Assembly (NCBI GenBank): GCA_021787565.1
Contig: JAJYLT010000003.1
Location: 1-64,000 of the forward strand
DNA: 64,000 bases
DNA from: Acidobacteriota bacterium
GTDB lineage: Bacteria; Acidobacteriota; UBA4820; DSQY01
Direction of reading: 5' to 3'
Positions 18,268 through 29,656 of the stretch are shown one piece after another. Below the pieces are notes generated by a model, which was given only the letters and a program-made list of their open reading frames with translations, was not told where the DNA came from and made no database searches. Each line of letters starts with the position of its first letter. Positions within the stretch are counted from its first letter, which is position 1. Position numbers and translations under genes: made by a program.

Positions 18268-18959
18268 GCCCCAAAATCCACCAAATCCGTGGGGCGGACC
18301 GTGGGCGCGGCCCCGCGCCGAAGAAGCCCAAGACGGACGCCGCTCCGATCCAGCCGCCGAAGGACAGCTACGGCGGCCGGAGGCGCGGGCCCGCCGTCAA
18401 AGACGCCATCGGCCTTCTGGAGCTGACCTCCATCGCCAAAGGCATCGAGGCCACGGACCTGATGCTCAAGGCCTCCGACGTGGAACTCCTGGCCAGCCGG
18501 TCCATCTGCTCGGGCAAGTACATGGTGCTGGTGCGAGGCGACGTGGCCGCCTGCGCCTCCTCCGTGGCCGCGGGCGAACAGGTGGCTCGGGAGACCCTGG
18601 CCGACTCGGTGGTGATTCCACACCTCCATGCCGAGATCTTTCCGGCCATCGCGCAGGCCTCGCTGGTGGAGGAGGTGGGGGCGCTGGGCATTCTCGAGTC
18701 CTTCAACGTGGCCAGCCTGATCGAGGGCGCCGACACCGCCGTGAAGTCTTCCGAGGTCCACCTCCTCGAGATCCGCCTCGCCATGGCCCTGGGGGGCAAG
18801 GCCTTCTGCGTGCTCACGGGACAGGTGGCCGCGGTGCGCTCGGCCGTGGAGGCCGGCAAGTCCGTGATCGGAGCCAAGGGCGCACTGACCAACTGGGCGG
18901 TCATCCCCTCCCCCGATCGCGCGCTCGTCAAGGAAATTCTGGGTGGCCGCCTGATCTAG
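18264..18959 (+). CDS. PduT-like tandem BMC-domain shell protein with N-terminal extension
   Basis: 231 residues. Two bacterial-microcompartment domains in tandem: residues ~46-132 (DAIGLLELTSIAKGIEATD) and ~137-224 (GALGILESFNVASLIEGAD). The pattern closely follows PduT, a trimeric shell protein with a 4Fe-4S cluster at its threefold pore; the cluster-binding Cys is conserved as Cys82 in SRSICSGKYMV. It differs from PduT in a 45-residue N-terminal extension rich in Arg, Lys and Pro. The start is fixed by the ATGA overlap with the PduS-like gene, and no internal Met gives a shorter product. No other shell gene occurs nearby. Confidence 0.9.
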   Translation: MSPKIHQIRGADRGRGPAPKKPKTDAAPIQPPKDSYGGRRRGPAVKDAIGLLELTSIAKGIEATDLMLKASDVELLASRSICSGKYMVLVRGDVAACASSVAAGEQVARETLADSVVIPHLHAEIFPAIAQASLVEEVGALGILESFNVASLIEGADTAVKSSEVHLLEIRLAMALGGKAFCVLTGQVAAVRSAVEAGKSVIGAKGALTNWAVIPSPDRALVKEILGGRLI

Positions 18960-18986
18960 GGCGGCCCAAGCCATGGGAGACACGAG

Positions 18987-20339
18987 ATGAGATCGAGCAC
19001 CGTCCCGAACGGACCAACGGCCGGGGAAGGCCGGGCCTTTCCCCTCCTCCTCGTAGCTCTGGCTCTTTTCTCGACCCTCACCGCCGTTGCGGCCCAGACC
19101 CCTCCGCCCGCTCCTCCCGAGAAGCAGATCACGGGGGTCATCACATCGAGCGGCTTCACCCAGCTCTCCATCGCCCTTCCGCCCAGCAAGACGGAGGCCG
19201 CGACGGCCGTCCAGGCCCAGGAGATCCTCTCCACGGTGACGGGCGATCTGGAGTTCTCGGGCTACTTTCAGCTCGTGGACCCGTCGCTTTTCGCCGGGAT
19301 GAATCCGAACGACACCAAGATCGACTACGATGCATGGACGGGGATGAAGGCGGACTATCTCCTCCTCACCAACGTCTATGCCTCCGGGAACCAGCTCACC
19401 CTCGAAGGCCGGCTCTATGACATCAAGCGCAAGGAGATGGTGACGGGCAAGCGCATCAAGGGCCCCGCCCAGGACGTGCGGGTCCTGGCCCACAACCTCT
19501 CCTCCGTGGTCCTCGACTACCTCTTCGGCGCGGGGAGCTTCCCCACCAGCCAGATCCTCTTCACGTCGCACCTGGCCACCACGGAGGACATCTTTCTCTG
19601 CGATTACGATGGGAAGAACATCCTCCGCCTCACGGCCATGGGACAGCTCAACGTGACCCCCGATGTGAACCCCCAGGGCAACCTCATCGTCTTCACCTCC
19701 ATCCTGAAAGACAGGCAGGAGATCTTCCTGCTGGACCGCCAGGGGCGGCGGAGAAAACTCTACGGCGACGGCGAGGGACTCAACTCCAACCCGCGGTTCT
19801 CCCACGACGGCAAGACCGTGGCCTTCTGCTCCTCCCGGTCCGGAAACCCCGACGTCTGGACCATCGGCGTGGACGGCAAGAACCTGACCCGGCTCACCTT
19901 CTCCTATGCCATCGACACCGCGCCCTGCTGGTCGCCCAACGACCAGCAGATAGCCTTCACCTCCGACCGCTCGGGCTCTCCGCAGATCTACATCATGGAC
20001 AGGGACGGCGCCAACGTGAGGCGGTTGAGTCCGCCAGACAGCGGGCGTTGCGATCAGCCCATCTGGTCCCCCCGCGGCGACAAGATCGCCTACAGCTGCT
20101 TCAAGGACGGCCACTTCAACATCGCCGTGGCGGACCTGACCACCGGAGAGGTCACCTTTCTGACGCATGGGGAGGGAGACAGCGAAGCGCCCTCCTGGTC
20201 GCCCGACGGACGGTACCTGGCCTTCGCCAGCAACCGCTCCGGGAGCTATCAGATCTACATCATGCGTTGGGATGGGTCGGGAGTGACCCGAATCACGAAC
20301 CAGCCGGACTGCTATTCGCCCTGCTGGTTCAAGGGCTGA
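18987..20339 (+). CDS. tolB: Tol-Pal system beta-propeller protein TolB
   Basis: 450 residues. TolB is a periplasmic propeller that links the Tol inner-membrane proteins to Pal at the outer membrane. A signal peptide ends near VAAQTPPP. The N-terminal domain (ITGVITSSGFTQLSIALPPS...) is followed by WD40-like repeats of the form PxxSPDGxxIAFxSxRSGxxxIY, e.g. APSWSPDGRYLAFASNRSGS. GGGAGACACGAG before ATG is a fair ribosome-binding site. pal and tolQRA are not in the window. The 27-base gap after the PduT-like gene could allow read-through. Confidence 0.92.
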   Translation: MRSSTVPNGPTAGEGRAFPLLLVALALFSTLTAVAAQTPPPAPPEKQITGVITSSGFTQLSIALPPSKTEAATAVQAQEILSTVTGDLEFSGYFQLVDPSLFAGMNPNDTKIDYDAWTGMKADYLLLTNVYASGNQLTLEGRLYDIKRKEMVTGKRIKGPAQDVRVLAHNLSSVVLDYLFGAGSFPTSQILFTSHLATTEDIFLCDYDGKNILRLTAMGQLNVTPDVNPQGNLIVFTSILKDRQEIFLLDRQGRRRKLYGDGEGLNSNPRFSHDGKTVAFCSSRSGNPDVWTIGVDGKNLTRLTFSYAIDTAPCWSPNDQQIAFTSDRSGSPQIYIMDRDGANVRRLSPPDSGRCDQPIWSPRGDKIAYSCFKDGHFNIAVADLTTGEVTFLTHGEGDSEAPSWSPDGRYLAFASNRSGSYQIYIMRWDGSGVTRITNQPDCYSPCWFKG

Positions 20340-28235: not shown

Positions 28236-28463
28236 GTCACCCTGAAGACACCCCATGAAGGGTCTCAGGGGTGCAACCCAGAGGGACGCCATTGCTCCCG
28301 CCGTCCCCCAGCCTGTCACCCTGAAGGCGTCCCCCGGAGGGCTCCCCGTGAAGGGTCTCAAGGGTGGAGCCGGAAGGAGAAACGTGCGGCTCCGAGGGCA
28401 GCGGGCTTCTTCCACCCCTGAGATCCTTCAGGGGCACCGCTTCGAAGCGGCCTTCAGGATGAC
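28236..28463. repeat. Inverted-repeat module 1
   Basis: Two A units (28236-28273, shortened; 28315-28366) and one B unit (28413-28463). A has the form GTCACCCTGAAG...TGAAGGGTCTCAGGGGTG, about 52 bases; B is the same unit on the other strand (CACCCCTGAGATCCTTCAGG...CTTCAGGATGAC). Spacers are also repeated among modules: CAGAGGGACGCCATTGCTCC between A units and GAGCCGGAAGG... between A and B. Confidence 0.85.
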
Positions 28464-28513
28464 CGGGGAAGCGGACGGGGGCCGCATCGCAAGGGGCCGC
28501 TCCCGACAACGCG

Positions 28514-28770
28514 GTCACCCTGAAGGCCACCCCCAGAGGGCACCCCCAGAGGGCTCCCCTTGAAGGGTCTCAAAGGTGGAGCCCAGAGGGACGCCATTGC
28601 TCCGGGCGTCCCCCCGCCTGTCACCCTGAAGGCGCCCCCCCGGAGGGCTCCCCGTGAAGGGTCTCGGCGGTGGAGCCGGAAGGGGAAACGTGCGACTCCA
28701 AGGAGGGCTAGCGTTCTCGCACGCCTGAGATCCTTCAGGGGCACTGCTTCGAAGCAGGCTTCAGGATAAC
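28514..28770. repeat. Inverted-repeat module 2
   Basis: Units A 28514-28578, A 28620-28672 and B 28720-28770, with the same spacers as module 1. The first A carries an internal 12-13-base duplication (CCCCAGAGGGC twice). The stop codon of the GIY-YIG gene lies inside the last B unit, so the repeat and the gene physically overlap. Confidence 0.85.
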
Positions 28771-29084
28771 CGGGATGGCGGTTTGGCCCCACCCATCAGG
28801 TCCGGCGCGAGATCACGCCAGCCGGGATTCACCGACTCCACGAGGGCGATCTTGCGAGCCCTCAGCCAGCCCTTGATCTGTTTCTCCCGCGCGATGGCCC
28901 CGAGTGCCCCCTCGCCGACCTCGTAATACACCAGCTTCTTGACGTTGTACCGCAAGGTGAATCCATCCTGGATCCCTCGCCGATGCTCTTCCATCCGCCG
29001 AATGAGATCGGAGGTTACGCCCACGTACAGCGTCTTGGTGTGGCTCGCCAAGATGTACACAAAGAACAGCTTCTTTCGTACCAT
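28761..29084 (-). CDS. Small GIY-YIG nuclease-domain protein
   Basis: 107 residues. The single domain has the family motifs: FVYILAS (GIY strand), LYVGVTSDLIRRMEEH (YIG strand with the catalytic Arg and a following Glu/His), and AREKQIKGW with the metal-binding Glu. It resembles the small stand-alone GIY-YIG proteins of unclear function rather than UvrC. Base composition is lower in GC than its neighbours (about 50% over 29041-29100 by hand count). The 3' end runs into repeat unit B at 28720-28770, and repeats resume 50 bases upstream of the start. The ribosome-binding site is weak. A role in repeat mobility is a hypothesis, not a known function. Confidence 0.85.
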   Translation of the reverse strand: MVRKKLFFVYILASHTKTLYVGVTSDLIRRMEEHRRGIQDGFTLRYNVKKLVYYEVGEGALGAIAREKQIKGWLRARKIALVESVNPGWRDLAPDLMGGAKPPSRLS

Positions 29085-29133
29085 GGCTTACCCTACCACC
29101 CTTTTCCTCGCCCGTCCTCCTTTCAGTCCTCTC

Positions 29134-29364
29134 GGGGACGCCATTGCTCCCGCCGCCCCCTCACCCGTCACCCTGAAGGCACCCCCCGGTGGAAGAGGCC
29201 GCAATCCGTCGCAGTGTCACCCTGAAGGCGCCCCCAGAGGGCTCCCCATGAAGGGTCTCAGGGGTGAGACCGGAAGGGATTAGCGAAGGGCTCCGAGGGT
29301 GGCTCGCCTCTCCCACGCCTGAGATCCTTCAGGGGCACCGCTTCGAAGGGGGATTCAGGATGAC
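29134..29364. repeat. Inverted-repeat module 3 (left part truncated)
   Basis: Begins inside the inter-A spacer (GGGACGCCATTGCTCC), then a partial A (29167-29189), a full A (29216-29266) and B (29314-29364). The missing left part is exactly where the GIY-YIG gene sits, as if the gene replaced a 50-base inter-module spacer plus one A unit. Confidence 0.8.
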
Positions 29365-29412
29365 CGGGGAAGCACGGGGGCAGCGACGCAAAGGGCCGCT
29401 CCCGACAACGCT

Positions 29413-29656
29413 GTCACCCTGAAGGCCACCCCCAGAGGGCTCCCCGTGAAGGGCCTCAAGGGTGAAGCCCAGAGGGACGCCATTGCTCCGGGCGTCCCCC
29501 CGCCTGTCACCCTGAAGGCGTCCCCCGGAGGGCTCCCCATGAAGGGTCTCAGGGGTGGAGCCGGAAGGGATTAGCGAAGGGCTCCGAGGGCGGCTTGCCT
29601 CCTCCCACGCCTGAGATCCTTCAGGGGCACCGCTTCGAAGAGGGCTTCAGGATGAC
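29413..29656. repeat. Inverted-repeat module 4
   Basis: Units A 29413-29464, A 29506-29557 and B 29606-29656, the most regular copy. The inter-module spacer 29365-29412 matches 28464-28513 (GGGCCGCTCCCGACAACG shared), so spacer and modules were duplicated together. Confidence 0.85.

Follow-up and report, generated by a model that had tools for sequence, protein, structure and literature searches.

The window analysed here is a 64,000-nucleotide stretch of an Acidobacteriota draft genome (contig JAJYLT010000003.1, positions 1 to 64,000). At 28236-29656 it holds an array of four repeat modules (28236-28463, 28514-28770, 29134-29364 and 29413-29656), with a small gene between the second and the third. 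The modules had been delimited in a first-pass annotation of the sequence and stand as drawn, with pairwise identities of 81-91%. That annotation placed in each module a unit of about 52 bases in direct (A) and inverted (B) orientation. Both orientations are present, on the plus and the minus strand respectively; the core unit, GTCAYCCTGA...GAAGGRTCTC, is about 43 nt long, the larger figure counting the trailing ...GGGGTG(G), and there are two A units per module, not one. Module 1 contains a short A unit (28236-28266) and a second A unit (28315-28359), separated by a 62-nt spacer from its dimer partner, the B unit at 28421-28463. Module 2 has an A unit with an internal duplication of 13 nt (28514-28571), a further A unit (28620-28665) and a B unit (28728-28770) whose tag GTC has become GTT. 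Module 3 lies on the gene's 5' side and has a truncated A unit (29167-29190), a complete one (29216-29259) and a B unit (29322-29364), and module 4 has A units at 29413-29457 and 29506-29550 and a B unit at 29614-29656. The whole array thus counts eight A and four B units. Units in the window begin with GTCA, preceded mostly by T or C, and the A-B spacer of dimers of this subfamily measures 62-65 nt. Folded as single-stranded DNA, A-B dimers reach z = -3.2 to -4.5, better than every shuffle (-4.3 for the dimer of module 1, -3.2 for that of module 3).

The gene, 107 codons on the minus strand (28761-29084), encodes a GIY-YIG nuclease of a clade related to UPF0213/COG2827 (PF01541, 49 bits). Two features ascribed to it at first reading are confirmed: its stop codon (28761-28763) lies inside the B unit of module 2, and it is poorer in GC (59.9%) than the array (67.9%) and the window (66.8%). 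The sole other PF01541 match in the 3.47-Mb draft is a 601-aa frame, probably UvrC to judge from its length. Across 58 relatives the catalytic-motif residues Y10, Y20, G22, R30 and N86 are invariant and E67 is conserved in more than 90%; the fold and the catalytic Tyr, Arg and Glu place the protein in the GIY-YIG superfamily. In fold, its AlphaFold model (pLDDT 84.5) comes closest to a UPF0213 protein and to the structure-selective nuclease Slx1, which cuts branched DNA. The solved structures nearest by sequence, at E 1e-10, are the UPF0213 proteins BH0048 (1zg2) and EF2693 (1ywl). A Pfam profile search found no Y1_Tnp match in the window protein, and a comparison with 50,697 phage records (E 1e-5) gave 0 matches.

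Is this copy a newcomer? A sister species carries an orthologue (88% identity) in the same place, with the same upstream gene, flanked by two A-B dimers only. With a dN/dS of about 0.03-0.08 between the pair, the protein is being maintained. Within this genus the gene is inherited vertically and kept under purifying selection, so the window copy did not arrive recently. The earlier suggestion that the gene took the place of part of the array is poorly supported, since in the sister species only two dimers accompany the gene at this locus; for the same reason the array in the window seems to have grown later, by local tandem amplification of a dimer-gene-dimer unit. The sister genome holds further GIY-YIG copies (L029 on contig C48 and L195 on contig C165), accompanied by the hairpin types GTCATTGCGAG and GTCATTCCGTG, respectively. 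Because the hairpin type differs at each, the sequences suggest separate acquisitions that brought their own repeats.

We then took a census of the repeats in the source genome by sequence-pattern search. The unit pattern has 66 matches and the reversed control pattern none. Of 44 tabulated units, among which the 5-bp stem comes in four sequence variants, 43 have complementary stem arms; 16 would be expected, and the maximum in 5000 shuffles was 27. A chance or low-complexity repeat is ruled out by the control pattern, the shuffles and the stem covariation. Each hairpin opens with the GTC tag and a 5-bp stem; in most cases a tandem G.A mismatch follows, then comes a second stem, and a short tail, CT or CC(A), closes it. 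Outside the window the units form mostly head-to-head dimers; the 18 that we extracted measure 116-119 bp in total and differ in their flanks, and the spacer is exactly 30 nt in all 18. Two side observations concern contig C49 of this genome. A dispersed family of about 400 bp, with copies 85-90% alike, adjoins a REP dimer there (L180, 808-1200) and occurs at more than 13 places in the sister genome. REP-like units also lie in two near-identical stretches (L043 and L044, at C49:38262 and C49:40318), downstream of which the sequence reads like an RHS core; these units may lie within coding sequence or border on it.

Does the pairing of gene and hairpin extend beyond one genome? A scan of GTDB genomes for relatives gave 80 loci from many phyla. 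In these we searched for hairpins of the form GTC-A(N4)...(N4')T-C(C/T), comparing DNA within 250 bp of the gene (near) with DNA more than 2 kb away (distal). GTC hairpins occur at 4.74 per kb near the gene versus 0.172 per kb distally, a 27.6-fold enrichment; 63 of the 80 genes have one within 250 bp, 43 of them on both sides, and at 17 the strict hairpin is absent within that distance. GTC ranks first among the 64 three-nucleotide tags scanned. Second in enrichment near the gene is AGG (0.77 per kb, 11-fold, in the flanks of L050-L129). A replicate on 23 further loci again put GTC on top, with 12 of 23 genes positive. An earlier hairpin search that required a perfect arm of 6 nt had returned a weak signal, because the tandem GA mismatch made such an arm too strict: 141 of 214 hairpins beside related genes show a tandem G.A/A.G mismatch just inside the 5-bp stem and mostly a CT tail, and the perfect-stem type is found at 16 of 75 loci.

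The hairpins frame the gene. Inverted repeats with a score of at least 16 straddle it at 34 of 68 testable loci, versus 0.46% of 1523 control positions, and most of them resemble TGTCATYCYGAG...GAAGGATCT. Where hairpins lie on both sides (n=43), the nearest ones are arranged outward/outward in 27 cases, versus 7, 6 and 3 for the other arrangements. Loci with hairpins on both sides thus usually carry a terminal inverted repeat, and the compact unit reads REP, a median of 26 nt upstream of the gene, an ORF of about 303 nt, a median of 4 nt downstream, REP, in total about 410 bp. Gene-bearing outward/outward units (n=27) and gene-less dimers have common GTCA...TGAC ends.

REPs are extragenic by nature, and this would favour a passive co-occurrence in which REPs and small genes simply gather in loose intergenic DNA. 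Yet when intergenic DNA alone is compared, hairpin density is 7.25 per kb near the gene versus 0.85 per kb far from it, still an 8.5-fold excess, and it declines from 7.0 per kb at 0-100 bp to 0.12 per kb beyond 6.4 kb. Generic accumulation in intergenic DNA is ruled out by this control. The inverted orientation bias speaks against passive gathering as well, as do the small YhbQ-like GIY-YIG genes, of which 0 of 17 have tagged hairpins beside them; the explanation is refuted by these controls and we consider it very improbable. The YhbQ-like clade likewise rules out the reading that any GIY-YIG protein is accompanied by such repeats. Its bit scores lie below about 75, those of the full-length REP-linked clade above 104. 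The association is genuine and general, and it belongs to a single GIY-YIG clade.

Could the repeats be moved by RAYT/Y1 transposases instead, the link with GIY-YIG genes being incidental? Y1 transposases are present in 9 of 10 genomes examined, including seven in the source genome. However, none of 30 Y1 transposase loci in 10 of the gene-bearing genomes shows the repeat pattern, and in the same genomes hairpin density is 0.077 per kb at Y1 loci versus 1.93 per kb at GIY-YIG loci. We disfavour this explanation and hold it to be extremely improbable.

Gene and repeats also occur together at the level of whole genomes. Across 397 genomes of the phylum, 29 of 45 with the gene are repeat-rich (at least 10 repeats), versus 18 of 352 without it (p=1.5e-20), and the co-occurrence is seen both inside the best-sampled family (p=0.0037) and outside it (p=3.5e-5), these p values being computed without full phylogenetic correction. 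In a smaller genome set, genomes with a YhbQ-like gene alone show no repeat enrichment (p=0.23). Few repeats were counted in 16 of the 45 gene-bearing genomes, with a pattern that covers only some stem types, and 18 of the 47 repeat-rich genomes have no gene. A missing statistical link, or homologues mostly in repeat-free contexts, would have told against the first-pass proposal; the link held strongly, with hairpins beside 63 of 80 genes and the phylum-wide p value above. On the related question whether GIY-YIG genes accompany the densest repeat clusters, not every dense array adjoins the gene: contigs C29, C49 and C77 of the source genome carry arrays without it.

Hairpins were further sorted into two classes, one with a perfect stem and mostly a CC tail, the other with a mismatched stem and mostly a CT tail. 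Mapped onto the weakly resolved protein tree, hairpin class changes 5 times versus 14.7 when shuffled, and 0 of 2000 shuffles are as low; shared host ancestry may contribute to this agreement. The stem sequence tracks the tree weakly (42 changes versus 46.9 shuffled). Specific co-evolution of the stem letters with the protein was accordingly set aside, only the structural class following the tree.

Does the unit itself come and go? Occupied sites were compared with empty ones, as had been proposed, and two genera, Azospirillum and Sphingobium, supplied pairs. The gap between sufB and sufC of Azospirillum lipoferum 4B holds a dimer-gene-dimer unit and is 617 bp long, and in five other Azospirillum it measures about 32-129 bp. 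Among Sphingobium plasmids that are about 90% alike, those of TomTYG46, TYG73 and MM15 carry REP-gene-REP in the interval from fnrL to a response regulator gene; at this very point a single fused palindromic REP stands in TomTYG64 and TYG74, and TYG72, TYG65 and S. herbicidovorans have no REP at the fnrL point. In these two genera, then, the unit comes or goes as a block. The Sphingobium break points fall at an 8-bp direct repeat, ACCCCGGG, within the REP, and for this reason the pair fits deletion or insertion alike. A search for target-site duplications met flanks too diverged in Azospirillum and nothing obvious in Sphingobium, and no clean empty-site pair was found for the Rhizobium and Planktothrix plasmid loci. 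The source and sister genomes gave no fresh empty site, all three dimers checked being kept at orthologous loci; these three are old and common to both species, and no recent jump was seen in the genus. Two individual loci deserve mention. Sphingobium sp. TomTYG72 has a different hairpin element, CTCCCTCTCTCCTTCAGGGGAGAGGG, at the fnrL locus (L173), where sister plasmids hold the REP-gene unit. On plasmid p1 of Planktothrix agardhii No.66 (18847-19131, L246) a GIY-YIG/REP unit lies inside a DISARM defence operon, between an MmeI-like gene and drmA.

The main rival explanation is that of a homing gene. Some insertion sequences target REPs, and the GIY-YIG gene might similarly be a homing parasite that cuts REPs as safe landing sites and is copied in, the REPs spreading by other means. 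The gene-less allele of TomTYG64 and TYG74, one fused REP exactly at the occupied site, is what such a gene would leave to be seen, and repeat-rich genomes without the gene fit it too. Yet deletion between the 8-bp direct repeats would account for the fused REP just as well, and intact dimers lie on both sides of the gene in the window, at L004 and at L162, not one interrupted REP. Orthologous presence with low dN/dS would be unusual for a pure homing gene. No other disperser was found beside the repeats: the Y1 loci are without them, and Di Nocera et al. 2013 (PMC3733652) found none. We regard homing as unlikely.

Purifying selection and vertical inheritance in the genus raise another question. 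Might the protein be a nuclease domesticated by the host to trim or resolve REPs folded into cruciforms or hairpins, in genome maintenance, replication or at mRNA ends, co-located with its substrate and dispersing nothing? The modelled similarity in fold to Slx1 would suit such a role. A housekeeping enzyme, however, has no need to adjoin its substrate, the gene is patchy (present in about 45 of the 397 genomes surveyed in the phylum), and both the compactness conferred by terminal inverted repeats and the block presence/absence look mobile. This explanation strikes us as rather improbable.

We consider it fairly probable that the gene is the dedicated nuclease partner of a GTC-tagged REP family, in a RAYT-REPIN-like system with an unrelated enzyme. 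The reading builds on the observed architecture, the many-phyla association and its subfamily specificity, stem covariation, co-occurrence, block presence/absence and purifying selection. A head-to-head REP dimer would be the non-autonomous dispersed unit; a unit with its own enzyme would arise where an ORF takes the place of the spacer, giving a REP-ORF-REP of about 410 bp, or where it stands between two dimers. REP-ORF-REP may thus be the autonomous form and the REP dimers its non-autonomous derivatives. We infer that the GIY-YIG protein recognises the REP in its folded state, be it a hairpin or a cruciform, and makes its cut next to the tag; host repair or replication could then complete the excision or copying of the unit or join it elsewhere. 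The candidate mobile or repeat-dispersal element of the first-pass annotation thus stands as far as the association of gene and repeats goes, dispersal by the nuclease is what we infer from that association, and the window copy itself is not new to its site. More tentatively, and as something that we hold to be a little short of probable, these loci may represent tiny autonomous mobile elements of about 400 bp, a class spread across the bacteria, in which a stand-alone GIY-YIG nuclease is combined with structured hairpin ends tagged by GTC. Such elements would be the source of the CGTC-type REPs of many phyla and their missing mobiliser, moving independently of HUH, DDE, serine and tyrosine transposases.

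REPs rank among the commonest bacterial repeats. GTAG REPs have their RAYTs, whereas the 2013 work left CGTC REPs lacking an enzyme. The GIY-YIG gene, with GTC-tagged hairpins beside it across many phyla, is a strong candidate partner for that class; in turn, a poorly described nuclease family gains a candidate substrate. A question stated openly in 2013 thereby receives a candidate answer, for whose test one protein and a handful of oligonucleotides would suffice. Should the enzyme indeed move the repeats, bacterial mobile elements would gain a new chemistry, and these elements would be among the smallest autonomous ones.

How do these loci compare with known systems? For the CGTC-tagged REP superfamily no dedicated transposase has been reported, GIY-YIG goes unmentioned, and its authors suggested that the enzyme was possibly lost early (Di Nocera et al. 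2013, PMC3733652). Those REPs are extragenic, form head-to-head dimers, and have a GTC tag at one end, a perfect 8-9-bp stem that starts from A (mostly AT) and a CCA tail (PMC3733652). Our repeats have the GTC tag (in the window mostly as CGTC or TGTC), the A-initial stem, the head-to-head dimers and the dispersed extragenic copies; the window family and most loci differ in their 5-bp stem, tandem G.A mismatch and CT tail, in place of the perfect 8-9-bp AT stem and CCA tail. In three organisms, N. gonorrhoeae (dRS3), S. meliloti and A. lipoferum, the gene has known CGTC REPs on its flanks, and the REPs at the gene in these three and in Sphingobium fit the class, including CC(A) tails. The repeats either are CGTC-tagged REPs or resemble them. 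The literature that we searched, which left bioRxiv and most subscription journals out of reach, held no prior link of a GIY-YIG gene with CGTC-type REPs.

UPF0213/YhbQ proteins are the nearest solved relatives in sequence and fold, but the YhbQ-like clade has lower bit scores and no nearby repeats. With free-standing GIY-YIG homing endonucleases (Seg proteins, I-TevI) the protein shares the catalytic fold and motif; unlike them, it has no intron or intein and no phage match, and is flanked by hairpin repeats of its own. The terminal inverted repeats common to gene-bearing and gene-less units recall a MITE and its parent transposon. A RAYT (TnpA-REP) is an HUH/Y1 transposase paired with GTAG-tagged REPs or REPINs. 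The analogy drawn at first reading with this system is apt: inverted REPs flank a conserved gene, REP dimers are dispersed, each REP has a tag and a hairpin, and hairpin class matches enzyme class. The enzyme here is a GIY-YIG nuclease instead of a Y1 transposase and the tag is GTC, not GTAG; the system is RAYT-REPIN-like in its anatomy and stands apart from the RAYTs in its enzyme and its tag.
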